This document shows positions 4,913-52,641 of a DNA stretch of 64,000 nucleotides, piece after piece. The notes beneath the pieces are model-generated. The model ran no database searches. It saw nothing but the letters and a program-made list of their open reading frames with translations, and was not told the DNA's origin. Position 1 is the stretch's first letter. Each line of letters begins with the position of its first letter. The position numbers and the translations under genes were made by a program. This DNA comes from Phreatobacter stygius (GTDB lineage: Bacteria > Pseudomonadota > Alphaproteobacteria > Rhizobiales > Phreatobacteraceae), in contig NZ_CP039690.1 of NCBI RefSeq assembly GCF_005144885.1, forward strand, positions 5,345,001 through 5,409,000, written 5' to 3'.

Positions 4913-5031
4913 GGCGAGTGGCGAATGGCGAATGGGGATGATGCGGGAAGCGCGGCGCCTCGTCGCAGGATTGGTCACCGTGCTCCGCGCATCATCCCCA
5001 TTCGCTACTCGCTATTCGCCATTCGCTGTTC
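4913..5031. repeat. CGAATRG-arm palindromic repeat, copy A
   Basis: The left arm is a tandem run of CGAATRG/CGAGTGG units ending in GGGGATGATGCG. The right arm is the complementary run CGCATCATCCCCATTCGC... with a roughly 70-bp loop. It lies between the HxlR gene and the broken hydrolase gene, both rightward. Confidence 0.85.
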
Positions 5032-5501
5032 CCGTGTAACCTCCGGCCGGCTCGCAGGAACCCAATCCATGACGACAAGCTTCAGACTGGCCGACATGAC
5101 CGTTCACCGCATCATCGAGCAGGAGGTGCCGTTCTTTTCGGCGCTCGAGGTGATGCCGGATCTGAACCGCCCCGGGTTTGCCGGAGGCTGTTTCATTTGA
5201 GTCAGGCGGCTCTGGCGTGCTCGGTGGTTTGCGCCCAAAAGCGCGCTTCGGCTTCGGCGGGAGGGATGTTGCCGATTGGTTCAAGAAGCCTTCGATTGTT
5301 GAACCAATCAACCCATTCCAGCGTCGCGATCTCGACGTCTGCCATGCCGCGCCAGGGGCCGCGACGATGGATGAGCTCGGCTTTGTAGAGCCCATTGATG
5401 GTTTCCGCCAAGGCATTGTCGTAGCTGTCGCCGACACTGCCAACCGATGGCTCAACGCCTGCCTCCTTCAGGCGATCGGTATATTTGATGGCAACATATT
5501 G

Positions 5502-6958
5502 GGCGGATTCAAACGGTCGTCGCAACACTCTGAAGTTGGAGGTTGCGATGAGCATCCGAAAGCGGCGATCGGCACGGTCTGGACGAGCGCCATTACCTTC
5601 ACCAGGACGGCCGCCTTTGGCGGGGCGCGATGAACAGATTCGATTCTGGCGGGCGATCGCCGCGGGGCTGAGCAGCGAAGATGCTGCTCTCGAAGCCGGA
5701 GTGTCGCAGCCTGTAGGAACCAGATGGTTCCGAAAGGCGGGCGGTATGCCACCAGCAATGTTCAGATCCTCGGCAAAGCCGCCTGGTCGTTACCTGTCAT
5801 TGGTGGAGCGTGAAGAGGTCGCACTTCTTAGGGTGCAGGGCCATTCCATGCAGGAGATCGGGCGCCGCCTGAGGCGAGCCGCCTCGACAATCTCCCGTGA
5901 ACTGCGGCGCAACGCAGCCACGCGCAGCGGCGGGTTGGAGTATCGGGCGACGACTGCCCAGTGGCATGCGGATCGATCGGCCCGTCGGCCCAAACCGACC
6001 AAGCTTGCGCTCAACACAACCTTGCGCACCTATGTGGAGGAGAGACTTGCCGGCGTCGTCGTGGCTCCGAGCGGCGTTTCCGTTCCAGGTCCTGCCGTTC
6101 CGTGGAAGGGCCGCCGGCATGGCCCGCGAAAGGATCGGCGATGGGCAAGGGCCTGGAGTCCGGAGCAGATTGCCCGGCGCTTGCCGATCGACTTCCCGGA
6201 CGACAAGACGATGCGTATCAGCCACGAAGCCATCTATCAGGCCCTCTTCGTTCAGGGCCGGGGGGTGCTGCGCCGCGAACTGACGGCCTGCTTGCGAACA
6301 GGACGCGTGTTGCGGGTGCCAAGGGCGCGCGTCCGCAGGCGAGGCAAGGGCTTTGTCTCGCCCGAGATCATGATCAGTCAACGCCCCGTCGAAGCAGCCG
6401 ATCGAGCGGTGCCTGGCCACTGGGAGGGAGACCTCATCCTCGGTCTTGGCAGCTCGGCGATCGGCACGCTGGTCGAGCGCACAACGCGCTTCACGATGCT
6501 GCTGCATCTGCCCCGCCTCGCGGGGCACGGCGAAGCTCCTCGCACGAAGAACGGGCCAGCGCTCGCGGGACACGGAGCTGAGGCCGTGCGCGATGCGATC
6601 GCGCGCACCATCATCACCTTGCCCGAAGAACTGCGTCGCTCGCTGACGTGGGATCAGGGAGCCGAAATGGCCCAGCACGATCGTCTCAAAATCGATGCGG
6701 GTGTCCAGGTCTACTTCTGCGATCCGCAAAGCCCATGGCAGCGCGGCACCAACGAGAACACCAATGGGCTGCTGCGTCAGTACTTCCCGAAAGGCACCGA
6801 CCTGAGCATCCACAGCGCCGATGAGATTGCCGCCGTGGCAGCGGTCCTCAATGCCCGACCGAGAAAGACGCTGGGCTGGAAAACGCCGGCAGAGGCGCTT
6901 GACGCGTTACTGCCATGAGTGAACACAATCGGTGTTGCGACGACCGTTTGAATCCGCC
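5502..6958 (+). mobile_element. IS30-family insertion sequence
   Basis: The 1457-bp element has identical inverted ends of about 27 bp starting GGCGGATTCAAACGGTCGTC at both termini. The 3-bp target duplicate TTG is at 5499-5501 and 6959-6961. It carries one transposase gene with its own ribosome site and lies inside orfB of the IS3-family element, so it arrived later. Confidence 0.95.
5548..6918 (+). CDS. IS30-family transposase
   Basis: The 456-residue protein starts at ATG 5548 behind TTGGAGG. An N-terminal helix-turn-helix (REEVALLRVQGHSMQEIGRR, then STISRELRRN) binds the terminal repeats. The C-terminal DDE domain shows HWEGDLILG, LTWDQGAEMAQH and NENTNGLLRQYFPKGTDLS, the three IS30 catalytic blocks. 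The gene appears intact, so this element could still be active. Confidence 0.95.
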   Translation: MSIRKRRSARSGRAPLPSPGRPPLAGRDEQIRFWRAIAAGLSSEDAALEAGVSQPVGTRWFRKAGGMPPAMFRSSAKPPGRYLSLVEREEVALLRVQGHSMQEIGRRLRRAASTISRELRRNAATRSGGLEYRATTAQWHADRSARRPKPTKLALNTTLRTYVEERLAGVVVAPSGVSVPGPAVPWKGRRHGPRKDRRWARAWSPEQIARRLPIDFPDDKTMRISHEAIYQALFVQGRGVLRRELTACLRTGRVLRVPRARVRRRGKGFVSPEIMISQRPVEAADRAVPGHWEGDLILGLGSSAIGTLVERTTRFTMLLHLPRLAGHGEAPRTKNGPALAGHGAEAVRDAIARTIITLPEELRRSLTWDQGAEMAQHDRLKIDAGVQVYFCDPQSPWQRGTNENTNGLLRQYFPKGTDLSIHSADEIAAVAAVLNARPRKTLGWKTPAEALDALLP

Positions 6959-7563
6959 TTGGACCCCTCGATCGGAATGATGGATCAGGCCGCCTTGCTT
7001 GAGCGGTCGACGCGCCTGAAGAGCCTGTTCCAGGGCGTCGAGCACGAAGGCGGTCTGCATGGATCGGGAGACCTTCCAGCCAACAATGAAGCGGGCAAAG
7101 GCGTCGATCACGAAGGCAACATAGACAAAGCCGCCCCCTGTCGAGACATAGGTGAAGTCCGACAACCACAGGGCATTGGGCCGATCCGCCCGGAAGTTGC
7201 GATTGACCTTGTCGCTCGGACAAGGCGCCGTCGGATGGCTGACCGTCGTCTTCACGCTTCTGCCCCGACGAGCCCCTTGCAGGCCCAGCCCCTTCATCAG
7301 GCGGGCGACCGTGCAGCGGGCCACCTCATAGCCCTCCCGCACCAGCTGCAGCCAAACCTTGCGCACGCCGTAAACCGAGAAGTTCTCGGCATAGACCCGC
7401 TTGATCTGAGCGCAAAGCGCTTCGTCCCGGCGCGCTCTTTGCGACCGCCGCTGCGGATCGGCTCGACGCGCTGCGTGCTCCCAATAGGTGGAAGGGGCTA
7501 TCGGCAACACCTTGCAGATCGGCTCGACCCCATATTCCGCGCGATGCTCGTCAATGAACGCCT

Positions 7564-7893
7564 TCATCGCTTGAACAGGCGGTCGAGCTCCGCCTGGGCA
7601 AAATAAGCCGATGCCTTGCGAAGAATCTCGTTCGCCTGGCGCAACTCGCGGTTCTCACGCTCAAGCTCCTTGATCCGGGCCGGATCCGCGCTTGTCGGCT
7701 CGGCATGAACACCTTCATCCTGCTCCGCTCGACGGATCCATCGCCGCAAGGTCTCTGCCGTGCAGCCGATCTTTCCCGAAATCGAGCAGATCGCTGCCCA
7801 TTCCGAGCCATACTCACCTTGATGCTCGCGAACCATTCGGATCGCCCGCTCCCGCACTTCGGATGAGTGCTTCACTTGTCCTTGTTTGCCCAT
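7564..7893 (-). CDS. IS3-family transposase OrfA
   Basis: A 109-residue protein with an N-terminal helix-turn-helix (VRERAIRMVREHQGEYGSEWAAI...TLRRWIRR) and a C-terminal leucine-zipper-like coiled coil (IKELERENRELRQANEILRKASAYFAQ). This is the standard OrfA plan. Its stop overlaps the OrfB start (ATGA at 7564-7567), so OrfB is made by coupling or by a -1 frameshift. Confidence 0.93.
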   Translation of the reverse strand: MGKQGQVKHSSEVRERAIRMVREHQGEYGSEWAAICSISGKIGCTAETLRRWIRRAEQDEGVHAEPTSADPARIKELERENRELRQANEILRKASAYFAQAELDRLFKR

Positions 7894-8724
7894 GGCTCCA
7901 ATCTCTCAAAGTTGGGAGCCTCCGGCAAACCCGGGGCGGTTCAGATCTGACCCCGGCGCGGCTCGAGGAAAATCGCTCCTGGCTCCAGCCCAAGGCGATG
8001 AACGCCGAGGGCGTGCTGATCCTCTGCTTCCAGTCCTACGTCGTGCGCACGCCGCACCACACCATTCTGGTCGACAGCTGCATCGGCAACCACAAGCACC
8101 GGCCGACCCGCCCGGGCTGGCACCAGAAGACCGACGACACCTATCTCAGCGGTCTTGCCGCCGTCGGCCTTCGGGTCGACGACATCGACTTTGTCATGTG
8201 CACCCACCTGCATGCCGACCATGTCGGCTGGAACACCCGGCTGGACAAGGATCGCTGGGTGCCGACCTTTCCGCGGGCGCGTTACCTGTTCAGCGAACAG
8301 GAATATCGCTACTGGACCGAACAGCATGCCAGGACGCCGCTGCCGGCGATCGGCGACAGCGTGCTGCCGGTCATGGAAGCCGGCCGGGCCGAGCTGGTGC
8401 GCGGCGACCATGAGGTCGGCGACCATGTTCGCCTCCTGCCGACGCCGGGCCACACGCCCGGCCATGCCGCGGTCTGTTTCGGCCGCGGCCGCGACGAAGC
8501 GGTCATGACCGGCGACCTGATCCACTCGCCGCTGCAGGCGCGCCATCCGGAACTGTCGATCCGCTTCGACGTCGACCAGGCGGCGGCCGCGGTCACCCGG
8601 CGCAGCTTCCTCGAGCGCTATTGCGATACCGAGACGCTCTGCTGCACCGCCCATTTCCCGTCACCCTCGGTCGGGCGGATCAAGCGCTGGGGCGAGGGGT
8701 TCCGCTGCGAGGAAGTAGGGTAGG

Positions 8725-8988
8725 GCGAATGGGGCAGCGCGAGTAGCGAATGGCGAATAGGGATTGGGGAAGCGCAGCCCGGCGAACAGGGCCGCGCGAA
8801 CCCTCGCCCGCGCCTTCGCGGGAGAGGGTGGCCGCGGAGCGGCCGGGTGAGGGTGGCTGCGTCAATGCGCGCCGTGCGTTCCGGGTCGAAATGATGGGCG
8901 AGGTGTCGTCCCGCAAGCGGGCGAGGGTTTACGCACACTGCGCTCTCGGCATCATGCCCCATTCGCAATTCGCTACTCGCCATTCGCT
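8725..8988. repeat. CGAATRG-arm palindromic repeat, copy B (with nested palindrome)
   Basis: Outer arms are runs of the 7-bp unit (GCGAATGGGG... and ...CCCCATTCGCAATTCGC). The interior (about 8807-8930) contains a second hairpin family with the motifs CCCTCGCCCGCG and GCGGGAGAGGG. It lies between two convergent genes. Confidence 0.85.
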
Positions 8989-9137
8989 CCCTGGAACCTT
9001 CCCGCAGGCTGCGCGTTACATTATCGGGATACCCCCGGCCGCCCCCAGTCGCGTCCATTATCGGCCGCGCGGGCCGGGTCGTCCCACACTCTCCATTGAC
9101 TGCCCCGTCGTCTCTTGCGGCGGGGCCTTTTTGTGCG

Positions 9138-9776
9138 CTACCGGCTGAGCAGGGTCTGGCGCGCGCGGCGCTCCCAGCCGCGGCGTTCGAGCTCCGGCAC
9201 CTCATGCTCGTCCGCCGGGTAGCCGAGGCAGAGATAGCCGATGAACTGCCAGGCATCGGGCACATCGAGGACGGCTGCGACCCGGGCCGGATCGAGGATC
9301 GAGACCCAGCCCATGCCGATGCCTTCGGCGCGAGCCGCGAGCCACAGCGTATGCACCGCCATGACCACCGAATAGGCTAGTGCTTCCGGCATGGTGCGCC
9401 GGCCGAGCCCATGACCCTGGGGCGTCGACGGATCGGCGAAAACGGCGAGATGAACCGGTGCCTGGTCAAGGCCTTCCAGCTTCAACCGGGCATAAAGCGC
9501 CTGACGCTCCCGCGGCTCGGCGGCCAGCGCCTCGGCATTGCAACGGGCAAATTCGGCGCGGATCGCGGCGCGCCGCTCGGGCGCCTCGACGCTGACGAAA
9601 CGCCAGGGCTGGCTCAGGCCGACCGACGGCGCCAGCGCCGCAAGTCCGACCAGCCGGGCAAGTGCCCCCTCGGGCAGCGGTCGCCCGAGGAAGTGGCGGA
9701 CGTCGCGCCGCCAGGTGAGCAGGCGGGTGAGCTCGGACCGGAAGGCGGGGTCGAAAGCATCGGCGTTGTGGACCAA
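9138..9776 (-). CDS. bluB: BluB-like 5,6-dimethylbenzimidazole synthase (nitroreductase fold)
   Basis: BluB converts reduced FMN and O2 to 5,6-dimethylbenzimidazole, the lower ligand of cobalamin. The 212-residue protein shows the FMN-site pattern RRDVRHFLGRPLPEG, APSVGLSQPWRFVSV, LGRRTMPEALAYSVVMAVHTLWLAARAEGIGMGWVSIL and YLCLGYP, all typical of BluB rather than ordinary nitroreductases. The best start is TTG 9776, without a clear ribosome site, so the start is uncertain. IS256 copy 1 begins 115 bp upstream and may cut it off from its native promoter. Confidence 0.8.
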   Translation of the reverse strand: MVHNADAFDPAFRSELTRLLTWRRDVRHFLGRPLPEGALARLVGLAALAPSVGLSQPWRFVSVEAPERRAAIRAEFARCNAEALAAEPRERQALYARLKLEGLDQAPVHLAVFADPSTPQGHGLGRRTMPEALAYSVVMAVHTLWLAARAEGIGMGWVSILDPARVAAVLDVPDAWQFIGYLCLGYPADEHEVPELERRGWERRARQTLLSR

Positions 9777-9891
9777 AGGCTTGGGCTTTCCGTTAGGGGT
9801 GCTACGGCGTCGCCCACGGGCGGTGTAGAGTCAACCGGCCGGCGGGCTGGAGCCTGCCGGTGGCACGCTCAACCTGAATCGGAACCTGCGG

Positions 9892-11256
9892 GGTCATGTC
9901 CCGTAGCGTGGTGTAGCTGGCGCAAGGCCCCACGATCGCCGGCATAGGCCGGGCTGGTCAGGCTGCCACGGCTGGCAGGCCGACACTAGGATCATCGCTC
10001 AGGCCGGCCATGGTTTCCAGGGTCATGTAGCGGGCCCGCTGGACGGCCCATTCATCGTTCTGTTCGAGCAGGATCGCGCCGACGAGCCGGGCGATGGCGG
10101 CCTCGTTGGGGAAGATGCCGACCACCTCGGTCCTGCGCTTGATCTCGCCGTTGACGCGCTCCAGCGGATTGGTGCTGTGGAGCTTCGCCCGATGTTGCGT
10201 CGGGAAGGTCATATAGGCCAGCACGTCGGTCTCGGCGGTATCCATCAGAGCCGCCAGTTTCGGCACCGTTGGCCTGAGCTGGTCGGCGACCCGGCGCCAT
10301 TGCTGGCTGGCGGCCGTTGCATTGTCTTGGGCGAAAGCGGTGGCGATGAAGGCTGAGACAACGCGCCGCCCGCTGCGGCCGGCATGGGCGAGCGCATTCC
10401 TCATGAAGTGCACGCGGCAGCGCTGCCAGGTCGCGGTGAGCACCTTGGAGACCGCCGCCTTGATGCCTTCGTGGCTGTCGGAGACGACGAGTTTTACGCC
10501 GCGCAGGCCGCGTCTGGCCAGTTTGCGCAAGAACGCCGTCCAGAACGTCTCTGCCTCGGAGGGGCCGATATCCATGCCCAGCACCTCGCGCCGACCGTCG
10601 CCGCTTACACCGACCGCCACGATCACCGCCACCGAGACGATCCGGCCGGCCTGGCGGACCTTCACATAGGTCGCGTCGATCCACAGATAGGGCCAGTCGC
10701 CCTCGATCGGCCGGTCGAGGAACGCATGGACGCGCTGGTCGATTTCCTCGCAGAGCCGGCTGACTTGGCTCTTCGAGATGCCGCTCATGCCCATCGCCTT
10801 GACCAGGTCATCGACCGAGCGGGTCGAGATGCCCTGGATGTAAGCCTCCTGGATCACCGCGGTCAGCGCCTTCTCGGCCAGCCGGCGCGGCTCCAGAAAG
10901 CCCGGAAAGTAGGAGCCTTTGCGTAGCCTCGGGATGCGCAGCTCGACCGTGCCGGCGCGGGTCTCCCAATCCCGCTCGCGATAGCCATTGCGCTGGGCCA
11001 GGCGGTCCGGGCTCTTCTCGCCGAAGCCGGCGCCGGCAAGGCCGCTGACCTCAAGCTCCATCAGCCGCCCGGCGGCAAAGCCGATCATCTCGCGCAGCAA
11101 ATCGGCGTCGGGGCTCTTCTCCAGCAGCCCGCGCAGGTTCATCATCTCGTCGGTCATCGGTGGATCTCTCGGTTCGGGGTTGGTCGTCGCAACCCAAACC
11201 TAACCGGCAACCGCCGATGACCACCCGTCAGTTACACCACCAGTCGGGACACGACC
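9892..11256 (-). mobile_element. IS256-family insertion sequence, copy 1
   Basis: The 1365-bp element has imperfect inverted ends (GGTCATGTCCCG... against GGTCGTGTCCCG...) and 8-bp target duplicates ACCTGCGG at 9884-9891 and 11257-11264. It is nearly identical in sequence and identical in length and orientation to 48023-49387. Confidence 0.95.
9958..11157 (-). CDS. IS256-family transposase, copy 1
   Basis: The 399-residue mutator-type transposase has catalytic blocks [10 protein letters not shown] (first Asp), [15 protein letters not shown] (second Asp), the C/H-containing [10 protein letters not shown], and the Glu block [20 protein letters not shown]. It differs from the second copy by only a few residues around position 276 ([10 protein letters not shown] against [10 protein letters not shown]). 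The frame is intact, so it could be functional. Confidence 0.95.
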
Positions 11257-11264
11257 ACCTGCGG

Positions 11265-11543
11265 CCATCGGCCCAACAGCCTGACGCGACTCGTCAATGT
11301 CTCGTGCGGCCGGTCCAACTGGCCGCGGCTTGCGTATCGGCATAAGATGGCTGGAGCTGCGGGGCCGTGGGCCGATGTGCCGGCGAGGCGCAACCTTCGT
11401 TGTGCCAGCGGGTTCACGTCTTGAAGGGCATTCCATGCCCCGGTGCCAAGCCTTCGGTGCCAAGCCTTCGGTGTCGAGCCTTCGGGGCCAGACCTGTCGT
11501 GCCGAGCCCCGGATGCACTGTCGAACCGTGAGAGGAGACAGTC
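11265..11543. repeat. Intergenic region with 14-bp tandem repeat
   Basis: Three tandem copies of a 14-bp unit (GTGCCAAGCCTTCG, the third with two changes) occupy 11443-11484, and a degenerate fourth follows. I see no gene in the remainder, which is the displaced right flank of the IS256 target. Confidence 0.6.
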
Positions 11544-11738
11544 ATGCAACGCCTTCAGGATGTTCCGGCCGCGCGACCTGGGACGCATCTGCCGATGCGC
11601 CGCATGACCGCGGCCGCGACGCCGCCGATCCGGGCGGCCAGGACCGGGCCGGCGATCGCCTTGCCGGACCGCTCCGCCGAGCATGCGGCGGAGCAGGAGG
11701 ATGGCGACGCCAAATGTTTCGAGAAGAGCGTGACCTGA
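11544..11738 (+). CDS. Possible small protein, 64 aa
   Basis: The frame begins MQRLQDVPAARPGTHLPMRR and has an AGAGGAGA ribosome site 8 bp before ATG 11544. The ending GDAKCFEKSV is unlike random GC-rich frames. No signal peptide or family is recognised. It is convergent with the aldo/keto reductase gene. This is a tentative call based on ribosome site and composition only. Confidence 0.35.
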   Translation: MQRLQDVPAARPGTHLPMRRMTAAATPPIRAARTGPAIALPDRSAEHAAEQEDGDAKCFEKSVT

Positions 11739-11749
11739 GCGTCTGACGC

Positions 11750-12598
11750 TCAGATCATCGCCAGCTGACGTTTCGCCTTGGGCGGCGGAAAGGCGCGGTC
11801 GAGATCGGCGAGGTCCTGCTCGGTCAGGACAAGGTCGAGCGCCGCCCGATTTTCGGCGACATGGGCGGGTGTGCCGGCTTGCGGAATGGCGCAGACATGG
11901 TCGTGGCGCAGTACGAAAGCCAGTGCGACCTGTGCGGGCGTGGCACCGGCATGGCGCGTCGCGATGGTCTTCAGCGCCGGATGCATCAGCAGCCGGCCCT
12001 GTTCGATCGGCGAATAGGCCATGACCGGCAAGCCGTGCCGGGCCGACCAGGGCAGCAGGTCGAACTCGATGCCGCGGTCGGCGAGATTGTAGAGCACCTG
12101 GTTGGCGGCGACGCCGTCGCCACCGGCGGCGTCATCGAGCGCTTTCATATCCTCGACGTCGAAATTGCTGACCCCCCAATGCAGGATGCGGCCCGACGCG
12201 GTCAGGTCCTCGAAGCCCTGGATCGTCTCCTCCAGCGCCACGCTGCCGGGCCAATGCAGCAGATAGAGGTCGATCCGGTCGGTGCCGAGCCGTCTGAGGC
12301 TCGCCTCGCAGGCCGCCCGCGTGCCGCGTCGCGTGGCATTGTGCGGCAGCACCTTGCTGACCAGGAACACCTCGTTGCGCCGCCCGGCGATGGCCTCGCC
12401 GACCAGCACCTCGGCGGCGCCGTCGCCATACATCTCCGCGGTGTCGATCAGCGTCATGCCGAGGTCGAGGCCGAGCCTGAGCGCGGCGATCTCGGAACTG
12501 CGGCGGCCGGGCCGATCGCCCATGTGCCAGGTGCCCTGGCCGAGTGCCGGCATGGCGGCGCCCGAGGGCAAGGTCGTGGTGCGGACGGGTTTGGTCAT
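11750..12598 (-). CDS. Aldo/keto reductase
   Basis: This NADPH-dependent carbonyl reductase family protein (282 residues from ATG 12598) has a TIM-barrel with the catalytic tetrad visible: Asp and Tyr in TLIDTAEMYGDG, Lys in VFLVSKVLPHN, and His in DLYLLHWPG. The C-terminal nucleotide-binding region reads AIPQAGTPAHVAENRAA. It resembles the YeaE-type AKRs. The frame extends upstream but lacks family sequence before TKPVRTTTLPSG. The substrate is not predictable. It stands alone between small genes. Confidence 0.9.
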   Translation of the reverse strand: MTKPVRTTTLPSGAAMPALGQGTWHMGDRPGRRSSEIAALRLGLDLGMTLIDTAEMYGDGAAEVLVGEAIAGRRNEVFLVSKVLPHNATRRGTRAACEASLRRLGTDRIDLYLLHWPGSVALEETIQGFEDLTASGRILHWGVSNFDVEDMKALDDAAGGDGVAANQVLYNLADRGIEFDLLPWSARHGLPVMAYSPIEQGRLLMHPALKTIATRHAGATPAQVALAFVLRHDHVCAIPQAGTPAHVAENRAALDLVLTEQDLADLDRAFPPPKAKRQLAMI

Positions 12599-12806
12599 GG
12601 CGGCGCGAACCTCAAGGGCGCGGGGCGGCAGGCGGCGCATCATAGCGCGTTGTCGCCTTGGCTGTGAGACCAACCCTCGCACCCCGTCCCGTCATTTGCG
12701 GAAGGCCCGGGCGAGCCGCCGCCATCGTCAGGGAATGGATCGCAACTCACCTTGCCGCGGCACCTGAATCAGGCCCGGCCTGCTCCTGACCGGATCAGGC
12801 AATCGC

Positions 12807-12995
12807 TCAACGCGGCCACTGGCTCATGATGATGCGGTCCTGCTCTTCGTCGCGGCGTGCGGCTTCGGCGCGGGCCTGGGGGCGAGCCTCGGCACCGCTG
12901 CGCCGCATGGCATGGAAGCCGAGGTTCATCATCGTTTTCATCGACGTCAGGCTGCGTTGCAGCACCATGGTGACCACTCCGGATATCCTGCGCAT
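12807..12995 (-). CDS. Small basic protein, 62 aa, hypothetical
   Basis: The frame begins MRRISGVVTMVLQRSLTSMKTMMNLGFHAMRR and ends in a charged helix AEAARRDEEQDRIIMSQWPR. GGAG lies about 11 bp before the ATG. It follows the flavoprotein gene at 13035 by 39 bp on the same strand and may be its operon partner. The family is not recognised. Confidence 0.45.
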   Translation of the reverse strand: MRRISGVVTMVLQRSLTSMKTMMNLGFHAMRRSGAEARPQARAEAARRDEEQDRIIMSQWPR

Positions 12996-13034
12996 CGATC
13001 GGACACTCCGTTCGAGGAGCGACGGGGGGGCGGG

Positions 13035-13748: not shown

Positions 13749-13795
13749 GGCGGGGCGTCCTGGGGGCTCTGATGAATCACCCCTCCCCCAATGGG

Positions 13796-23217: not shown

Positions 23218-23498
23218 CGAATGGCGAATAGCGAATAGGGCATGATGCGACGCGCGCGTGAACCCTCGCCCGCGTCTTCGCGGGAGAGGGTGGCCGCGTC
23301 AGCGGCCGGGTGAGGGTGGTTGCGTCAAAGCGCGACGTACATTTTTGCGTCGAATTGATTGGCGAAGCAGATTTGGGGCCCTCACCCGCCGGCTACGCCG
23401 GCACCCTCTCCCACGAAGACGCGGGAGAGGGTTTGCGCGCTCGTCGCATCATGCCCTATTCCCCACTCCCCACTCGCCACTCGCCACTCGCCATTCGC
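23215..23498. repeat. CGAATRG-arm palindromic repeat, copy C (with nested palindrome)
   Basis: The left arm is TAGCGAATGGCGAATAGCG... and the right arm is a complementary run of CACTCGC/CATTCGC units. The core 23262-23440 holds two complementary blocks (CCCTCGCCCGCGTCTTCGCG and its partner ACGAAGACGCGGGAGAGGG). It sits between convergent aminotransferase and IclR genes. Confidence 0.88.
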
Positions 23499-28472: not shown

Positions 28473-28607
28473 CGCGAATAGCGAATGGCGAATGGGGCAT
28501 GATGTGAGACGCTTTGCGCATGGCCCTTGCCGCCGGAGGCAAGCGATGCGCTCCCCCTTCATCCCCATTCGCTATTCGCTATTCGCCACTCGCTATTCGC
28601 CACTCGC
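28473..28607. repeat. CGAATRG-arm palindromic repeat, copy D
   Basis: Left arm CGCGAATAGCGAATGGCGAA and right arm a run of ATTCGCT/CACTCGC units flank a small internal palindrome (CCTTGCCGCCGGAGGCAAG). It separates the convergent yccF and ECF41 sigma genes. The right arm encodes the last residues and the TAG of the sigma factor. Confidence 0.88.
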
Positions 28608-35286: not shown

Positions 35287-35420
35287 GTGGCCAATAGCGA
35301 ATGGCGAATGGGACATGAGGCGGCGACGGCATTGAATGACCCCGCCGGAATTCTCTCCGGAGAGAAGGGCTGATCGATGCGCGTTTCGCATCATGCCCCA
35401 TTCGCCATTCGCCACTCGCC
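35287..35420. repeat. CGAATRG-arm palindromic repeat, copy E
   Basis: Left arm CCAATAGCGAATGGCGAATG and right arm ATTCGCCATTCGCCACTCGC enclose an internal palindrome (GGAATTCTCTCCGGAGAGAA). This copy lies between divergent cupin and hydrolase genes, unlike most copies. Confidence 0.85.
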
Positions 35421-38835: not shown

Positions 38836-38974
38836 GGGTGAATGGCGGCCGGTGCCGCGCAATCCCTCTCCCACGAAGACGCGGGAGAGGTTTCACGCGC
38901 TCGCCGCATCATGCCCCATTCGCTACTCCCCATTCGCCATTCGCCATTCGCCATTCGCTATTCGCTACTCGCCC
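38832..38974. repeat. CGAATRG-arm palindromic repeat, copy F
   Basis: The left arm is short (GGTGAATGGCGG) and followed by part of the nested block (CCCACGAAGACGCGGGAGAG). The right arm is long: seven ATTCGC/ACTCGC-type units. It lies between the convergent DapA-like and metallophosphoesterase genes and encodes the end of the latter. Confidence 0.85.
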
Positions 38975-41096: not shown

Positions 41097-41223
41097 GGGC
41101 GAGTGGCGAATAGCGAGTGGCGAATGGGGCATGCAGCGAAATGCCGCTGGCATCATTCGCCCTGGGGCAGGGGAGTTCACTGCGTCGGTCGGATCATCCC
41201 CATTCGCTATTCGCCATTCGCTC
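41097..41223. repeat. CGAATRG-arm palindromic repeat, copy G
   Basis: Left arm GCGAGTGGCGAATAGCGAGT and right arm ATTCGCTATTCGCCATTCGC flank a loop of about 60 bp. It fills most of the gap 40770-41193. I saw no gene in the rest of that gap. Confidence 0.85.
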
Positions 41224-42447: not shown

Positions 42448-42600
42448 GGCGGTCTCCCCGGAGCGCCGGCAATGCTATGTCAGGCGGCACGGCAAGACTT
42501 GCTGAATTTGCGGCTTCTGGGAGATATCTCGGAATGATCATTTGGCAAGAGTAGATATTGTCGGTAAGATCAACTGCAATGTTGGATTACGGCAGGGTCG

Positions 42601-42793: not shown

Positions 42794-42825
42794 TGACCTT
42801 GGTGCCAGGCCCAAGGAGTTCAGCC

Positions 42826-43296: not shown

Positions 43297-43325
43297 GGGG
43301 CTGCGAAACGAGCAGCTCGGTCATC

Positions 43326-44345: not shown

Positions 44346-44783
44346 TGGGTCTCGCGGCGATCACGGAGTCGATGCTGGTGCTTCCGTGGGATTGGTTATC
44401 GGAAGATCGTGAATAGCCGGTAGCGATGCGTGCCAAATGGCAAGGCCGCCGATCTGCCATGCACGGAAAGATCTGGGCGGAGTGTGTCCCGCCCGGCGAT
44501 CGGTGGAAAGGAGGCCTCGGCTTCCGCGAACGGTCCTCCTCACGAAGGGTCAGCAATCGCGCCGCGCCGCCGGCCATTGAAGCGAGCGGATGACCGCCCC
44601 CGCATGTGATCGACACACACACAGCAGCTCCCGGAGAGCGGCGCAATGCATCACCGACATGGCCTCCGCCGTCCGTCCCGGGAAAACGGCGAGCCAGCCC
44701 CAGGCGGGCAGAGTTTGCGGCTCGATTGGCGGGAGATTCGCCGTCTTTCCGAGGTTTTGGGCCGTGGCGGCGAGGAATTCGTC
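44346..44783. promoter_or_regulatory. Upstream region of the AraC gene
   Basis: No gene is evident in this stretch. It contains TGCCAAATGGCA (44431-44442), a perfect 12-bp palindrome about 85 bp upstream of the AraC start. The segment AAATGGCAAG (44435-44444) is repeated in both copies of the 140-bp upstream repeat. Confidence 0.45.
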
Positions 44784-44923
44784 GCGGGCGCCGCATGGAA
44801 GAAATGCGCTCGTCGGATAGAAATTGGCGCAAAATGGCAAGACTGGTGATCGGCCTATGCTCGAAATGATCCGAACAACGTTCGTCTGCCGATCAGACGG
44901 TGATCGGTCAGACGGCATTTGAG
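44784..44923. promoter_or_regulatory. Duplicated 140-bp upstream region, copy 1
   Basis: This stretch aligns without gaps to 45847-45986 along its whole length. Shared parts include AAATGGCAAGAC, CCTATGCTCGAAATGA, the palindrome CGAAC-AAC-GTTCG, TTCGTCTGCCGATC and GGTGATCGG. It ends 63 bp before the outer-membrane-type gene. Confidence 0.85.
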
Positions 44924-44986
44924 CGTTCTTGATCTGCTCCGCATACCGCGAAATCGGGGTTGCGAGCGACCATCGGATGAAAAGCT

Positions 44987-45787: not shown

Positions 45788-45846
45788 GTCGTCCGAGGGG
45801 CCGACATGCATCCTGCGGAAGGACTGCTCAGGCTCGGCCAGTCATT

Positions 45847-45986
45847 GCGGGCGGCGCATGGGAGAAATCCGGTCGCCTGACGGCGATTGGCGCGAAATGG
45901 CAAGACGGGTGACCCGCCTATGCTCGAAATGAGCCGAACAAAGTTCGTCTGCCGATCGGAGGGTGATCGGTTCGACGGCATCTGAG
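45847..45986. promoter_or_regulatory. Duplicated 140-bp upstream region, copy 2
   Basis: This copy ends 72 bp before the DUF1254 gene start. Compared with copy 1, the conserved palindrome reads CGAAC-AAA-GTTCG, so the spacer changed but the arms did not. The pair CCGATC...GATCGG is also kept. Confidence 0.85.
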
Positions 45987-46058
45987 TTGGCCCATGCCGC
46001 GCCTTGTCGAATGCCCCACGGCGTTCGTCAGCGCGGCCTTGAACGAAGAGGTATGTTG

Positions 46059-47093
46059 ATGTTGCGCTTGGTTGGGATCGGTCTCGCAATTGCTTCGGTT
46101 GCACTGGCCAGTGGAGCGTTTGCCCAGGCGCCCAGCGGCAGAATGCTGGTCACCACTGACAATTTCAATCGCGCGGAGACCGACCATTACCTCGCGATGA
46201 ATGCCAAGGTCATCGGCGGACTGGGCCGGTTCCAGCACTCCCGGGAACCCGCGTCGATCGACAATCAAACGGTCATTCGCATGAACCGGGACACGCTTTA
46301 TTCGTTCGCGGTGTTTGATCTCGCCGGCGGGCCGGTGACGCTCGCGCTGCCCGACGCGGGCAGGCGCTACATGTCGATGATGGTGGTTGACCAGGACCAC
46401 TACCTGCCGGTCGTCGCCTACGGGCCGGAGCCGGTCACGCTGACGCAGCAATCGGTGGGCACCCGATATGCCTTCGTCGCCGTCCGGACGCTGGTTGATC
46501 CGAACGATCGCAAGGATCTCGACGAGGTCCACAGGCTTCAGGACGCGATCAAGGTCAGCCAGAACCAGACAGGGCGGCTCGAGCTTCCAAACTGGGATGA
46601 AGCCAGTCTCACGGATATCCGCAATGCGCTGCTCGCATTGGCGAAACATCAGCCGTCTTTTCGGGGCGCCTTCGGAGCGCGTGGCCAGGTCGATCCGATC
46701 CAGCACCTGATCGGCACGGCCGCCGGATGGGGCGGTATTCCGGACAGGGACGCCATCTATGTGAGCATCACGCCCGCGAAAAACGATGGCCGGACAGTCC
46801 ACACCCTCGTCGTGCCGACGAATGTGCCGGTGAAGGAGTTCTGGTCGATCAGCGTCTACAACCCAAGGGGCTTCTTCGAGAAAAACGCCTACAACGCCTA
46901 TTCGATCAACAGCATTACCGCGAAGAAGAATGCGGACGGCTCGGTGACGATCCAGTTCGGCGGCTGTGACGGCAAGATCCCGAACTGCCTGCCGATCGTT
47001 GAGGGGTGGAACTACACCGCGCGGCTTTATCGTCCGGAGCAACCCATTCTCAGCGGGAACTGGAGGTTTCCGGAGGCAAATCCCTTGAACTGA
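46059..47093 (+). CDS. DUF1254/DUF1214-domain secreted protein
   Basis: The 344-residue protein has a signal peptide (MLRLVGIGLAIASVALASGAFAQ), an N-terminal DUF1254 region (FNRAETDHYLAMNAKVIGGLGRFQHSREPASIDNQTVIRMNRDTLYSFAVFDLAGGPVTLALPDAGRRYMSMMVVDQDHY) and a C-terminal DUF1214 region (EFWSISVYNPRGFFEKNAYNAYSINSITAKKNADGSVTIQFGG...LPIVEGWNYTARLYRPEQPIL). Such proteins occur in the periplasm with outer membrane partners; the activity is unknown. ATG 46059 is preferred because GAGG lies 8 bp upstream. Confidence 0.9.
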   Translation: MLRLVGIGLAIASVALASGAFAQAPSGRMLVTTDNFNRAETDHYLAMNAKVIGGLGRFQHSREPASIDNQTVIRMNRDTLYSFAVFDLAGGPVTLALPDAGRRYMSMMVVDQDHYLPVVAYGPEPVTLTQQSVGTRYAFVAVRTLVDPNDRKDLDEVHRLQDAIKVSQNQTGRLELPNWDEASLTDIRNALLALAKHQPSFRGAFGARGQVDPIQHLIGTAAGWGGIPDRDAIYVSITPAKNDGRTVHTLVVPTNVPVKEFWSISVYNPRGFFEKNAYNAYSINSITAKKNADGSVTIQFGGCDGKIPNCLPIVEGWNYTARLYRPEQPILSGNWRFPEANPLN

Positions 47094-47116
47094 GCCTCGG
47101 GGGATCGTTCGGCGGG

Positions 47117-47402
47117 CACAGTGGTTGTGGCTCTTGGGCTGGATAGGCGCTGCGCTGATAATAGACAGCGGAGCAATGGTAACTCGGCACCACGTCCTCA
47201 TGCTCGCACCACGTCGTCTTGCCCGGGCTTGTCCCGGGCACCCACGCATTCATCCGCTCACGGCAATCAATTCGTGGGTGGCCGGGACTAGCCCGGCCAA
47301 GACGAGAACTGTCCTTGGGCGCGCGGGCGTTGGATCGACCGGGCGCAGGAGCCGGCCAAGCATTCATCTGTTCGCGGCAATCAGCCCGTCACAACCACTG
47401 TG
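47117..47402. repeat. MITE-like element bounded by 13-bp inverted repeats
   Basis: Perfect inverted ends CACAGTGGTTGTG (47117-47129 and complement at 47390-47402) enclose 260 bp without a gene. Inside are a long hairpin (47215-47304, arms starting CGTCTTGCCCGGGC) and a direct repeat GCATTCATCYGYTCRCGGCA (47246-47266 and 47360-47380 approximately). I could not identify a clear target duplication. Confidence 0.5.
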
Positions 47403-48022
47403 CAGCGGTGCCCGATGCCCTGCGATCGACGCATTCCCCCGACCTGCGATCCATGACCCAGAGCAGAGCTGGACATACCCATTGGCTTATGTAGCGAGCA
47501 CGATGAAGCAGAATCTCCTCTCCGTGATCCTGACATCCCTCATGATCACCTTGGCGGGGCCGGTTGGTGCGCAGACGGATCATGGCGGCCGCTCCAATGC
47601 GCCGGCCGATCCGCATTTCAACCTTTTGCCTGGCTATCTGCAGCAGGCCGACTTGCCCGACAGCCTGCTGCTTCTTCCGGCCTCGCCGGCAGACGGTTCG
47701 GCTGCGCTCGCCCGCGACGAGGAGGCGCGAACCGAAGCCGCGCGCCAGGGAGGATCGGCGCGCTGGCAGCAGGCGGTCCGCGACGCCGAATTGAATTTCC
47801 CGCAGCCCGCCGAGAACTTCTCCTGCGCCATGGGCATCGCCATCGACGAGAAGAATACGCCGCGTCTCTACAACCTGATGCGGAAGATGCTGACCGACGT
47901 CGGCCTGTCCACCTATGGCGTCAAGAACAAGGTCCAGCGGACGCGTCCTTTCGTCAGGCACGCCGAGGGCACCTGCACGCCCGGCGACGAGGCGATCCTT
48001 CGGACCGACGGGTCTTATCCGT

Positions 48023-49387
48023 GGTCATGTCCCGTAGCGTGGTGTAGCTGGCGCAAGGCCCCACGATCGCCGGCATAGGCCGGGCTGGTCAGGCTGCGAC
48101 GGCTGGCAGGCCGACACTAGGATCATCGCTCAGGCCGGCCATGGTTTCCAGGGTCATGTAGCGGGCCCGCTGGACGGCCCATTCATCGTTCTGTTCGAGC
48201 AGGATCGCGCCGACGAGCCGGGCGATGGCGGCCTCGTTGGGGAAGATGCCGACCACCTCGGTCCTGCGCTTGATCTCGCCGTTGACGCGCTCCAGCGGAT
48301 TGGTGCTGTGGAGCTTCGCCCGATGTTGCGTCGGGAAGGTCATATAGGCCAGCACGTCGGTCTCGGCGGTATCCATCAGAGCCGCCAGTTTCGGCACCGT
48401 TGGCCTGAGCTGGTCGGCGACCCGGCGCCATTGCTGGCTGGCGGCGGCGGCATCGTTCTGGGCGAAGGCGGTGGCGATGAAGGCTGAGACAACGCGCCGC
48501 CCGCTGCGGCCGGCATGGGCGAGCGCATTCCTCATGAAGTGCACGCGGCAGCGCTGCCAGGTCGCGGTGAGCACCTTGGAGACCGCCGCCTTGATGCCTT
48601 CGTGGCTGTCGGAGACGACGAGTTTTACGCCGCGCAGGCCGCGTCTGGCCAGTTTGCGCAAGAACGCCGTCCAGAACGTCTCTGCCTCGGAGGGGCCGAT
48701 ATCCATGCCCAGCACCTCGCGCCGACCGTCGCCGCTTACACCGACCGCCACGATCACCGCCACCGAGACAATCCGGCCGGCCTGGCGGACCTTCACATAG
48801 GTCGCGTCGATCCACAGATAGGGCCAGTCGCCCTCGATCGGCCGGTCGAGGAACGCATGGACGCGCTGGTCGATTTCCTCGCAGAGCCGGCTGACTTGGC
48901 TCTTCGAGATGCCGCTCATGCCCATCGCCTTGACCAGGTCATCGACCGAGCGGGTCGAGATGCCCTGGATGTAAGCCTCCTGGATCACCGCGGTCAGCGC
49001 CTTCTCGGCCAGCCGGCGCGGCTCCAGAAAGCCCGGAAAGTAGGAGCCTTTGCGTAGCCTCGGGATGCGCAGCTCGACCGTGCCGGCGCGGGTCTCCCAA
49101 TCCCGCTCGCGATAGCCATTGCGCTGGGCCAGGCGGTCCGGGCTCTTCTCGCCGAAGCCGGCGCCGGCAAGGCCGCTGACCTCAAGCTCCATCAGCCGCC
49201 CGGCGGCAAAGCCGATCATCTCGCGCAGCAAATCGGCGTCGGGGCTCTTCTCCAGCAGCCCGCGCAGGTTCATCATCTCGTCGGTCATCGGTGGATCTCT
49301 CGGTTCGGGGTTGGTCGTCGCAACCCAAACCTAACCGGCAACCGCCGATGACCACCCGTCAGTTACACCACCAGTCGGGACACGACC
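48023..49387 (-). mobile_element. IS256-family insertion sequence, copy 2
   Basis: The 1365-bp element has the same terminal repeats as copy 1 and 8-bp duplicates TTATCCGT at 48015-48022 and 49388-49395. It is in the same orientation as copy 1 and 38.1 kb away from it. The target lies in the acid phosphatase gene. Confidence 0.95.
48089..49288 (-). CDS. IS256-family transposase, copy 2
   Basis: The 399 residues are nearly identical to the copy at 9958-11157. The only protein change I saw is QNDAAAA instead of QDNATAA, caused by a cluster of base changes at about 48443-48473. Two other differences are silent. All three catalytic acidic blocks ([19 protein letters not shown] and [10 protein letters not shown]) are present. 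The intact frame and matching target duplicates suggest recent and possibly continuing activity. Confidence 0.95.
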
Positions 49388-49703
49388 TTATCCGTCCGGG
49401 CACTCCGCGGTTGGTTGGGGCTGGGCTCTGGCATTGGCCGAGATCAATCCGGAGCGTTCGAATGAGATCTTGGCGCGCGGATTGGCCTTCGGACAAAGCC
49501 GGGTCATCTGCAATGCGCACTGGCAGAGCGATGTCGAAGCGGGCCGGATCATGGCTGCCGCCACGCTGTCGCGCCTGCATTCCGACGCTGCCTTTCTCGC
49601 CGATCTTCAGGCCGCACGCGAAGAGCTGACGCGCGCGCGCCAGGCGAATCTTGAGCCGCGGACCAGTTGCGTCGACGAAGCGGCGGCCTTGGCCGTTCGA
49701 TGA

Positions 49704-50007
49704 GGCGACCGAAGCATGCGCATGCCCACCGCTACGGCGGCCGTCTGAAGCGAACCACGGTCCTGTCGGTGGTGCCGGAGGGCTGAGGGGCGGGCGGGAC
49801 GCTGATGAATCAAGCCTCTCCCTCTGGGAGAGGGTTCGTCGGCGCCTTTCGTTCTCGCGCCGCGGCGCCCTCGCGCAACCACTCCCCAACAAAATCCGCG
49901 CAATCCGGATTCTTCCCCGCGCAATCCGGATTGCGCTTGTCGCCCATTCGCGCTCTCGTTGCGTCATCATCGGCCGTGCGAGGCGGCTTCATCCTGGGGA
50001 GGATCGG
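49704..50007. repeat. Intergenic region with CCTCTCCC palindrome
   Basis: No gene is seen. The site GATGAATCAAGCCTCTCCCT...GGGAGAGGGTTCG (about 49802-49835) is a palindrome of the same family as the target of the IS4-family element (13771-13795 plus 15228 onward). A direct repeat GCGCAATCCGGATT occurs twice at 49898-49932. Confidence 0.6.
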
Positions 50008-50457
50008 ATGGCGGAACTTGAAAAAGGCATCACGCAGGAAGGCACCGGCTACGCCGGCAAGACCTGGAACATCCTGGGCCAGGTCTATTTCCCGAAAGCC
50101 GTCTGCGACTCCACCTTCGCTTTCGAGACCAATAGCGCGCCCGGTCAGTTCGTGCCGGTGCACATCCACCCGACCCAGGAGGAGTTCATCCTGGTCCAGG
50201 AGGGCGTGCTCGACCTGAAACTCGATGGCCAGTGGGTGAAGGCCAAGGCCGGCGATCTGGTGCGCCTGCCGCGCGGCATTCCGCACGGCTATTTCAACAA
50301 GTCGGACAAGCCGGCGCGCGCGCTGTTCTGGGTCTCGCCGGCGCGCATGCTGGAGGAACTGTTCAACAACCTCCACAACGTCGCCGACCCGGAAGAGGTG
50401 GTGAAGATCTCGGCGCGCCACGAGGTCAACTTCCTGCCGCCCGAGGCCAATGCCTGA
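50008..50457 (+). CDS. Cupin-domain protein
   Basis: The 149-residue cupin has a complete metal-binding motif: PVHIHPTQEEFILVQEGVLDLKL (two His and Glu) and KAKAGDLVRLPRGIPHGYFNKSDKPARALFW (final His). ATG 50008 has GGGGAGG upstream. The C-terminal helix MLEELFNNLHNVADPEEVVKISARHEVNFLPPE is typical of quercetin-dioxygenase-like cupins. It precedes the flavin monooxygenase gene by 383 bp of repeat-rich DNA, so an operon is uncertain. Confidence 0.88.
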   Translation: MAELEKGITQEGTGYAGKTWNILGQVYFPKAVCDSTFAFETNSAPGQFVPVHIHPTQEEFILVQEGVLDLKLDGQWVKAKAGDLVRLPRGIPHGYFNKSDKPARALFWVSPARMLEELFNNLHNVADPEEVVKISARHEVNFLPPEANA

Positions 50458-50552
50458 GCCGGGCCCGGAGGTTGGCTGCTTCAGGCGGAAGATCCCGTCG
50501 GCCTGGTCGCCGATCGCTGATCTCCGGAGGTTCGCACTTGAACCTCCAACTC

Positions 50553-50714
50553 ACCTCTCCCCGGCGGGGAGAGGTCGGCGAAAGCCGGGAGAGGGGGCGA
50601 GGCGCTTGTCGGCCAGGCGCCATGCGAAACCTCCAAAGTCTTGTTCGGAAAAGCCCAATTCTCCCTCTCCCGACCTTCGTTCCTCAGGTCGACCTCTCCC
50701 CGCCGGGGAGAGGT
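50553..50714. repeat. Two ACCTCTCCCCGCCGGGGAGAGGT palindromes
   Basis: Nearly perfect 23-bp palindromes lie at 50553-50575 and 50692-50714 in the gap between the cupin and monooxygenase genes, with a third at 55721-55745. They resemble bacterial REP elements. The rest of the gap (50458-50840) shows no gene. Confidence 0.85.
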
Positions 50715-50840
50715 GAAAGGTGGTGGTTCTGGTGCACGCCGCATGTCTCGCTCAAGGCGAGGTGAGGCGCTGCGCCTCCGCGCCGGCTTCCCCCGGATTG
50801 CAGTGCCTTCTCACAAAACCGCTCGAGCGAGGGCCGGATC

Positions 50841-52337
50841 ATGGTTGCCCAGAAGACTGTTTGCATCATCGGCGCCGGCATTTCCGGCCTGGTCGCGGCC
50901 AAGGTGTTCAAGCAGCACGGCCACAAGATCACCGTCGTGGAACGCGCCGCCGATATCGGCGGCGTCTGGGAGCCGAGCCGCTCCTATCCCGATGTCCAGA
51001 CCCAGAGCCCGAAGGACCTCTATCGCTACACCAGCAAGGCCATGCCGGCGTCCTATCCGGAATGGCCGAAGGGCCCGCAGGTTCATCAATATCTGACCGA
51101 GTTCGCCCGCGATCACGACCTCGGGCCCTATCTCAGGCTGAACAGCAAGGTTGTCGCGATGAGGCGGCAGCCGGCCGATCGCCCGGGCTGGACGCTGGAC
51201 ATCCAAACCGGCGACGGTCCGGCGACATCGGAAGAGTTCGACTTCGTCGCCGTCTGCACCGGCCAGTTCTCCGACAAAAATGTCGTCGACCATCCCGGCG
51301 CGCAGGATTTCACGGCGGCCGGCGGCGCCATCATGCACTCCTCCGACTATACCGATCCGGCCACGCTCAAGGGCAAGCGCGTCATCGTGCTCGGCGGCTC
51401 GAAATCGGCCACCGACATTGCGGTCAATGCGGTCAAGGTGGGCGCCGCCTCGGTCACCAATGTCATGCGCGAGCCGTTGTGGCGCATACCCTATTTTCTC
51501 GGCGGGCTGATCAACTTCAAGCGCATCGTCTATGCCCGCGCCCAGGAGGAGATGTTCGGCGGCTGGGGCCAGACCCGCCGGGCGCGTTTCGGCCATGCCA
51601 TCGCCAAGCCCTTCGTCTGGGCCAATTGGCGGGCGCTGGAGAGCCTGCTCAAGACCCAGCTGAAACTCAAGAAGTGCGGCATGGTGCCCTCGACGCCGAT
51701 CGAGACGGTGATCAATTGCGCGCTTCCCATCGCCACGCCGGATTATCATCCGATGGCGGCGGACGGGCGCATCCACATCGTGCTGGGAACCATCGCGCGT
51801 TATGACGGCCGCACCGTGGTGCTCAGCACCGGCGAAAGGCTCGATACCGACATCGTCGTCCAGGCGACCGGCTGGAAGCTCGGCGTGCCCTTCCTGCCCG
51901 AGGACTACCGCGCCAAGCTGGTCGAGCCCGACGGCCAGTACCGGCTCTACCGCCTTGTCGCCAATCCCGACCTGCCCGACATGGGCTTCGTCGGGTTCAA
52001 TTCGTCCTTCGCCACCGTGCTCTGCGCGGAAATGGCGGCCAACTGGCTGGTCCGCTACGCCGATAGCCAGCTCGCCCGCCAGCCGACCGCAGCCGAAATG
52101 CGCGACAATATCGAGATGATGCTGCGCTGGAAGCGCGACGAGCGGCCGGCGGCGAGTGTCTATGGCGGGCTCTGCGTCGCGCCCTTCCACTTCAAACATC
52201 TCGACGAATTGCTCGAGGATATTGGCGCGACGACACGCAAGCGCAGCCCGCTGGTGGAGAAATTCTCGCCGCCCGACGCCGATGCCTTTGGGCGCTATCT
52301 GGCCTCGGCGCCGGACTACCGGGCGAGTGGCGAATAG
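50841..52337 (+). CDS. Flavin-containing monooxygenase (FAD/NADPH)
   Basis: The 498-residue protein has an N-terminal FAD-binding Rossmann motif (VCIIGAGISGLVAAKVFKQHGHKITVVERAADIGGVW), a second dinucleotide motif for NADPH (KRVIVLGGSKSATDIAVNAV) and the region FVAVCTGQFSDKNVVDHPGAQDF, typical of class B flavoprotein monooxygenases. VQATGWKL matches the conserved ATG motif. These enzymes insert oxygen into N, S or ketone substrates; the substrate is unknown. The C-terminal RASGE and stop lie in repeat H. Confidence 0.9.
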   Translation: MVAQKTVCIIGAGISGLVAAKVFKQHGHKITVVERAADIGGVWEPSRSYPDVQTQSPKDLYRYTSKAMPASYPEWPKGPQVHQYLTEFARDHDLGPYLRLNSKVVAMRRQPADRPGWTLDIQTGDGPATSEEFDFVAVCTGQFSDKNVVDHPGAQDFTAAGGAIMHSSDYTDPATLKGKRVIVLGGSKSATDIAVNAVKVGAASVTNVMREPLWRIPYFLGGLINFKRIVYARAQEEMFGGWGQTRRARFGHAIAKPFVWANWRALESLLKTQLKLKKCGMVPSTPIETVINCALPIATPDYHPMAADGRIHIVLGTIARYDGRTVVLSTGERLDTDIVVQATGWKLGVPFLPEDYRAKLVEPDGQYRLYRLVANPDLPDMGFVGFNSSFATVLCAEMAANWLVRYADSQLARQPTAAEMRDNIEMMLRWKRDERPAASVYGGLCVAPFHFKHLDELLEDIGATTRKRSPLVEKFSPPDADAFGRYLASAPDYRASGE

Positions 52338-52641
52338 CGAGAAGCGGATGGGGCATGATGCGAGAGGCTTCGCGCAAACCCTCTCTCCCTCGGTATTGTG
52401 TCCCGGGCGAGGCGCATGAACCCTCGCCCGCGTCTTCGCGGGAGAGGGTGGCCGCGGAGCGGCCGGGTGAGGGTGGTTGCGTCAATGCAGGGGGTGCCTT
52501 CCGCATCCAAATGATTGGCGGGTGTAGGATTTAGACCCTCACCCGCCGGCTGACGCCGGCACCCTCTCTCGCAGGCGGGAGAGGGTTCGCCGCGCGTTTG
52601 GCTTCATGCCCCACTCGCTATTCGCTACTCACCATTCGCTA
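52321..52641. repeat. CGAATRG-arm palindromic repeat, copy H (with nested palindrome)
   Basis: Left arm GGGCGAGTGGCGAATAGCGA, right arm ACTCGCTATTCGCTACTCAC. The interior carries the same nested block as copies B and C (CCCTCGCCCGCGTCTTCGCG at about 52425, CCCTCACCCGCCGGCTGACG at about 52538). It lies between convergent monooxygenase and AraC genes and supplies stop codons to both. Confidence 0.9.

Follow-up and report, generated by a model that had tools for sequence, protein, structure and literature searches.

Why should one palindrome, built from repeated seven-base units, recur eight times within 64,000 nucleotides of a bacterial chromosome? The stretch in question (the window) covers positions 5345001–5409000 of the Phreatobacter stygius genome (G000), a single contig of 7.35 Mb, and its palindromes consist of inverted heptad arrays, (CGARTRG)n ... 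(CYAYTCG)n, on either side of a core. Our preferred answer, to which we give an even chance, is an old family of stop-adjacent gene-end palindromes that act as intercistronic or 3′-end RNA hairpins, much like repetitive extragenic palindromes (REPs), and that have long been kept. Because related hairpins occupy common places in other species, we regard them as long-kept gene-end structures, of a sort that is known though little understood, and not as noise. Their effect would be felt at the RNA level, and selection, rather than ongoing copying, would keep the units uniform.

The window holds only part of a much larger family. A two-unit pattern (CGARTRGCGARTRGSG) has 83 + 104 = 187 matches in G000, and its reversed control has 0. 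The initial annotation had proposed a dispersed family, with local noise as the alternative; copies were found genome-wide and in relatives, so local noise is ruled out. Its judgement that this is not a classical REP also stands: the family is dispersed and composite. At least 57 arm groups were recovered in G000, 31 of them two-armed and 26 with one recognised arm, a lower bound in which halves split by an insertion sequence (IS) count separately (82.7/84.2 kb, 372.5/373.9 kb and perhaps 4.686/4.688 Mb). At least two more copies, at 6.64 and 6.92 Mb (L246, L247), lie outside the 57, and past 6.009 Mb copies were located by TAG-only and ATGATGCG patterns, which miss arrays that have neither. 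By the exact pattern, copies are clustered, with 17 groups at 5.311–5.398 Mb, 0 in the following 319 kb and 3 at 5.717–5.739 Mb.

An element reads, in order, (CGARTRG)n, an inner box (approximately GGGG(C)ATGATGCG), a core and then the mirror image. The box had been described as a regular end to the arm; it is present, with only partial conservation (CGARTRGSG, 0–3 bases and ATGATGCG give 15 exact genome matches). Adjacent arm pairs point inward in 31/32 cases in G000 and 12/12 in a congener (G003), and 0 point outward. Core lengths fall into two classes among the 31 two-armed G000 copies, 28–95 nt (16/31) and 125–273 nt (15/31), and many of the longer cores contain, as judged by eye, a REP-like double hairpin. 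This long core also occurs heptad-free in G000 and G003 (L244, L245, L252, L253) and, in a related form, in congeners having few or no heptads (L249–L251); it is therefore a separate module. In some cores (L183, L030, G003 C10 and C71) the hairpin loop is swapped for a nested palindrome (CTCATAGCATCGAGCGAACGCGAGATGCGTTCGC type), i.e., a palindrome inside a palindrome. Two copies carry an IS110-family element within the REP-like core, at L003:1596–2714 (G000 ~82.8–83.9 kb) and at G000 372.5–373.9 kb. The ~82.8–83.9 kb copy, which was the one analysed, matches ISMno29 at 81% over 87% of the query and has ends CATCTGTG/CACAGATG at the same motif; a third IS110-family copy, at 6.099 Mb, has the same end.

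Arms of the element sit beside stop codons. Among 88 G000 arms, the outer neighbour is a stop for 56, a start for 22 and nothing within 400 bp for 10, while intergenic spaces of ≥80 bp, as background, are bordered by 320 stops and 388 starts. The fit to the stop is close, with 52/56 stop-facing arms lying from -27 (inside) to +18 (outside) and a median of 4, gene ends more than 29 inside the array being left uncounted. Only 2/22 start-facing arms are within 18 bases of the start, and 15/22 are at 50–151 bases. Spaces between convergent genes hold 23/48 classified groups (six inside a called gene and three at a locus edge are excluded) vs 57/354 background intergenic spaces of ≥80 bp; these context counts use our own gene calls, which were wrong at 3/8 window copies and perhaps at others.

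Predicted RNA folding was scored on both strands as z-scores against 40 dinucleotide shuffles. Seven window copies have z from -4.4 to -17.9 (the strongest is copy 3, at -17.9/-12.2), and copy 6 folds weakly, at -2.4 and -2.6. For convergent intergenic regions, the median z is -8.4 with heptads (n=6) vs -1.3 without (45 tested of 51). A transcribed copy would give the upstream gene a hairpin starting a few bases past its stop codon. Such a hairpin would probably hinder 3′–5′ decay of the upstream message, as REPs do, and slow the terminating ribosome; REPs ≤15 nt from a stop codon stall ribosomes (Liang et al. 2015, as cited in PMC5082802). Within operons the hairpin may set the balance between neighbouring genes, and between convergent genes the element may shield both 3′ ends. 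The heptad stem would then be the maintained part and the core an exchangeable passenger.

On re-reading the sequence, all eight reported copies were found in place. They are as follows, in window coordinates, with unit numbers as left + right and with strands given for genes where noted:

Copy 1: arrays 4915–4935 and 4998–5025; 3 + 4 units around a 62-nt core; tandem, beginning 11 nt past the stop of an HxlR gene (+), with a probable + gene on the right whose 29-residue 5′ piece ahead of an IS has no Pfam match.
Copy 2: arrays 8740–8760 and 8959–8986; 3 + 4 units around a 198-nt REP-like core, extra unit at 8726; convergent, the neighbours being an MBL-fold gene (+, its 3′ part, stop 8721–8723) and a nitroreductase gene (-).
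Copy 3: arrays 23218–23238 and 23456–23497; 3 + 6 units around a 217-nt REP-like core; convergent, an aminotransferase gene facing an IclR gene.
Copy 4: arrays 28475–28495 and 28565–28606; 3 + 6 units around a 69-nt core; convergent, a YccF gene facing a sigma-factor (ECF-like) gene whose stop codon comes from a heptad.
Copy 5: arrays 35298–35311 and 35398–35418; 2 + 3 units around an 86-nt core; divergent, a cupin gene on one side and an alpha/beta-hydrolase gene on the other.
Copy 6: 38838–38971; degenerate left arm (a single GTGAATGG), hairpin core at ~38864–38892, 8 right units at 38916–38971; between convergent DHDPS and metallophosphoesterase genes, the latter's stop codon coming from a heptad.
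Copy 7: arrays 41100–41127 and 41200–41220; 4 + 3 units around a 72-nt core; tandem, a PCC-domain gene (-) running through the right array and stopping in the inner box.
Copy 8: arrays 52324–52337 and 52611–52638; 2 + 4 units around a 273-nt REP-like core; convergent, an FMO-like gene, whose stop codon comes from the second left unit, facing an AraC gene.

A left arm of 2–4 units, which had been claimed for every copy, is found in 7/8; copy 6 has no clean left array. The placement of five copies between convergent genes is confirmed (copies 2, 3, 4, 6 and 8), with copies 1 and 7 tandem and copy 5 divergent. For copies 1, 2 and 8 the automatic gene calls were wrong and were replaced using Pfam matches and reading frames. 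Arrays extend into coding ends, because three window genes stop in heptads and the PCC-domain gene reads through. The heptad-derived stops give the ECF-like sigma factor, the metallophosphoesterase and the FMO-like protein like tails (ASGE or ASSE).

The window also contains other repeats and insertions. An IS3-family insertion at 5159–7947 (rve, HTH_21; ALIL pseudoknot RF01497 at 7493–7609) interrupts the MBL-fold gene and has no counterpart at the G003 place. A near-identical pair of Mutator-type (Transposase_mut) transposons lies at 9889–10188 and 48020–48319, separated by 38 kb (genes 9958–11157 and 48089–49288). A 145-nt direct repeat with 84% identity lies at 44779–44923 and 45842–45986, separated by 1 kb.

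How stable are these places over time? The two-unit pattern has 187 matches in G000, 106 in G003 and 0–3 in each of the 10 other genus members searched. The dense G000 block is syntenic in G003; a 19.9-kb part of it gives scattered single stretches in the other ten members, among the matches listed. Aligned G003 and G000 stretches are mostly 79–92% identical. On syntenic contigs C46 and C71, 7/8 compared copies keep the heptad element in place (read by eye), two of the seven, 5373475 and 5383923, being degenerate in G003. Two further syntenic copies are at contig ends, and the heptad site 5335253, also syntenic, is outside the comparison. Another nine sites were compared beyond C46/C71, a biased set, since these G003 stretches were picked for carrying heptads. 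The kind of core often differs at a common site, e.g., 86 vs 269 nt at 5341002 and 92 vs 289 nt at 6409062. Identity over the longer length is 0.82, 0.73, 0.66 and 0.66 for four orthologous long cores; 12 non-orthologous pairs average 0.66 and reach 0.77 at most, both samples being small. At G003 C8:42400–42830 and C8:89560–89990, a large inverted repeat (GGACCCCCTTCCCCTCGC type) stands in the stop-adjacent places of G000 heptad elements.

Common places are also found outside the genus. Three GSGANTN units in a row occur in 24/249 genomes of a phylum sample, and the reversed control matches 10 of the sampled genomes, at most 22 times in a single genome. The family f35 (Bradyrhizobium-like, by our own reading) has three GSGARTR units in 16/61 sampled genomes. 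Its element is heptads only, the arms surrounding loops of 3–42 nt, and two loci of another family of the order, f23, have loops of 30 and 64 nt. Together these give a set of 30 hairpins from 29/30 loci (L300 is one-armed), chosen by matches of ≥3 units. With neighbours checked by Pfam, common f35 sites are accB–accC (four species) and tuf–S10, rpoA–L17 and S13–S11 (two species each). All four separate same-strand neighbours of well-known operons, which weakens the case for a plain terminator. In 65 aligned unit pairs at these sites, variation is concentrated at the two purines (each differs in 24/65) and the first base (12/65), while positions 2, 3, 5 and 7 differ 0, 3, 1 and 3 times; this alignment was made by eye, the heptad pattern was the source of every locus, and the six accB–accC pairs are not independent of one another. 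Among the listed matches to the GSGANTN pattern, in which positions 4 and 6 are free, those two positions are still mostly purines.

Several observations count against long-kept gene-end hairpins. Most called convergent intergenic regions are heptad-free (51/57 at 50–350 bp in a 704-kb background, which is part of the G000 genome), so gene ends can generally do without the element. The median folding z of three heptad-bearing divergent regions is only -1.4, and the 26/57 one-armed G000 groups are IS-split halves in some cases only. Arrays are missing in G003 at four sites: 5338199, where a single CGAATGG unit is left, 6084992 and 6133213, where an unrelated large inverted repeat is found instead, and 6099020. 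Arms of 28 f35/f23 hairpins also adjoin starts, which makes the link to stops less exclusive in that set: a stop is the neighbour of 26 arms (at ≤18 bases for 24), a start that of 17 (at ≤18 bases for 7), and 13 have neither. That positions 2, 3, 5 and 7 vary little is partly built in, because the search pattern fixes them in at least one array. Neither G000 nor f35/f23 favours pairing between the purine positions, which is odd if the RNA stem alone matters.

The units themselves bear on how arms arise. The initial annotation held that unit number varies between copies and arms, and it does: G000 has 2–7 units on the left and 2–8 on the right. Left and right numbers correlate at -0.01 in G000 (31 two-armed copies) and 0.67 in G003 (n=13), and four-unit arms make up 15/62 arms of two-armed G000 copies and 41/60 in f35/f23. 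The G000 unit types are GAATGG (133), GAGTGG (71), GAATAG (70) and GAGTAG (30), which looks as if the purines at positions 4 and 6 were drawn independently. The two arms of a copy agree in 78/154 comparisons in G000 (0.506 vs 0.569 for shuffled pairs), 109/196 in the 30 f35/f23 hairpins (0.556 vs 0.566) and 46/74 in G003 (0.622 vs 0.554; 210/2000 shuffles as high). In G000 and f35/f23 this is no more than chance, so neither hairpin-templated copying nor hairpin-templated correction between arms can be seen in these two sets; G003 leans towards correction, unclearly. The suggested arm-by-arm growth agrees with G000 and the other families, where arms match no better than shuffles, while G003, with its correlated arm lengths, leans the opposite way. 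Aligned from the outside, G000 arms match below shuffles (63/148, 0.426 vs 0.553; 2000/2000 shuffles as high or higher), perhaps reflecting loss of perfect palindromes.

Could the arrays be neutral tandem repeats, made by polymerase slippage and tolerated at gene ends where little else is harmed? We consider this unlikely. Variable unit numbers, the occasional long uniform run (nine units at G003:C8:52776–52840 and ten CTATTCG in L262) and the excess of identical adjacent units in G003 (43/100 vs 0.312 shuffled; 6/1000 shuffles as high) all suit slippage. However, adjacent units in G000 are barely more alike than random (75/216, 0.347 vs 0.307 shuffled; 102/1000 shuffles as high), so slippage, which had been suggested as a source of the variation, is doubtful as its main recent one. 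It also sits poorly with the exactly four units in 41/60 f35/f23 arms (at loci chosen by ≥3 units), with orthologue differences that fall on purines (search-pattern bias included) and with inter-arm repair not being visible in two of three sets. A non-autonomous mobile element, like a miniature inverted-repeat transposable element (MITE) or a REPIN (REP doublet), with heptad arrays as ends and a transposase acting in trans, is another account that we doubt. It would explain dispersed copies with inverted ends, the REP-like core found alone and the uneven congener counts (187 and 106 vs 0–3 in 10 others), and Y1 transposase (PF01797) occurs in 7/11 heptad-rich (≥8 matches) vs 3/27 heptad-poor (0–3) genomes, uncorrected for kinship and genome size. 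Yet there is no fixed terminal inverted repeat of the MITE type, the outer boundary being a variable number of units (2 to 8). No target site duplication is readable at G003 sites lacking arrays, where flanks are too diverged, nor at 5338199 with its single unit, and sites are common to several species. The initial annotation had pointed to a REP-associated tyrosine transposase (RAYT) as a possible mover, which our search does not support: PF01797 has one match in G000, its 3.3-kb surroundings contain no heptad element, and the heptad-rich genomes G003 and G310 have no Y1 transposase by the same search. That G000 gene (6071804–6072127, L195) lies between inverted repeats of its own (GGTGACACGTACCTA), possibly forming its own small element.

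Perhaps the unit is instead a site for a protein that reads a seven-nucleotide period in DNA or RNA and ignores two purines, with the hairpin secondary. The independent look of positions 4 and 6, the unkept purine pairing and the preference for four units in f35/f23 fit this, but there is no candidate protein, and the inverted arrangement and fold strength would go unexplained; we think it very improbable. We give next to no credence to G-quadruplex elements of the kind published for Xanthomonas and Nostoc heptads, even though period, near-identical consensus, place and inverted pairing agree. The first unit base (in the CGARTRG frame) is C in 303/324 G000 units, and because C replaces the tract G in most present units, there are no G-tracts to build a three-tetrad quadruplex. 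Arms with at least four GGG tracts number 0/88 in G000, 1/45 in G003 and 0/60 in f35/f23 (arms only, excluding the GGGG of the inner box), which makes such a quadruplex impossible in 192/193 arms. Stop position and inverted pairing, together with the four units seen in one family, are thus found where G-tracts are lacking, which separates these traits from quadruplex formation. A broader proposal, which we rate as a long shot, makes the GSGANTN arrays of alphaproteobacteria, xanthomonads and cyanobacteria one gene-end class, in which a putative seven-base-register factor reads or writes units, is blind to two purines and counts four, quadruplexes being incidental; in its boldest form, the factor may write units by copying a template with wobble at two positions. 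The seven-base frame with two free purines is a testable signature of whatever maintains the element, and operon sites such as accB–accC and S13–S11 are convenient places to test its role.

How does the element compare with known systems? REPs are units of 20–40 nt with a conserved 5′ tetranucleotide, and REPIN/RAYT systems are paired extragenic inverted repeats. The present element shares the paired extragenic arrangement and differs in that no element-flanked RAYT gene was found in G000. Like a REP, it is an extragenic palindrome found at the 3′ ends of genes and is predicted to form a stable hairpin. REPs and bacterial interspersed mosaic elements, including Br-REP1 and Br-REP2 of Bradyrhizobium, are like it in being palindromes of 3′ untranslated regions and convergent-gene spaces, hairpin mosaics and IS targets; they differ in that the consensus sequences given in the passages covered have no heptad arrays (PMC5082802). 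The present arms vary in length.

Other dispersed heptanucleotide arrays are known. In most genomes rich in repeats, heptanucleotides are reported to be the most abundant class of long simple repeat (Mrazek et al. 2007, per PMC4679880), and the papers covered give no established function for such repeats. The Geobacter metallireducens element (four GGACCGG repeats; PMC2700814) has another unit and also lies within genes. The TAACTGA repeats of Beggiatoaceae (two to six units; PMC4679880) have another unit too, lie mostly upstream of start codons and include one indirect repeat. In one open-access literature library, 14-nt heptad strings were absent and the listed matches to 8-nt strings look unrelated; within that library, the element is undescribed.

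The closest known elements are the (GGGANTN)n repeats, i.e., GGGAATC arrays in Xanthomonas and GGGGA(C/T)T arrays in Nostoc, which Rehm et al. 2015 credited to G-quadruplexes (PMC4692102). The text of that paper reports stop-codon proximity, site conservation, a four-unit preference and inverted pairs (many in Xanthomonas, few in Nostoc), and it contains no mention of Bradyrhizobium or Rhizobiales. Heptad period, near-identical consensus, placement and inverted pairing are shared with the present element. Its units differ in mostly having C for the second base of the G tract, and in the present genus the arms surround a large REP-like core. As the defining GGG tract was looked for and is lacking, the element is not a member of the G-tract family, and we file it as a variant of the (GGGANTN)n kind of heptad repeat that stands outside that family.

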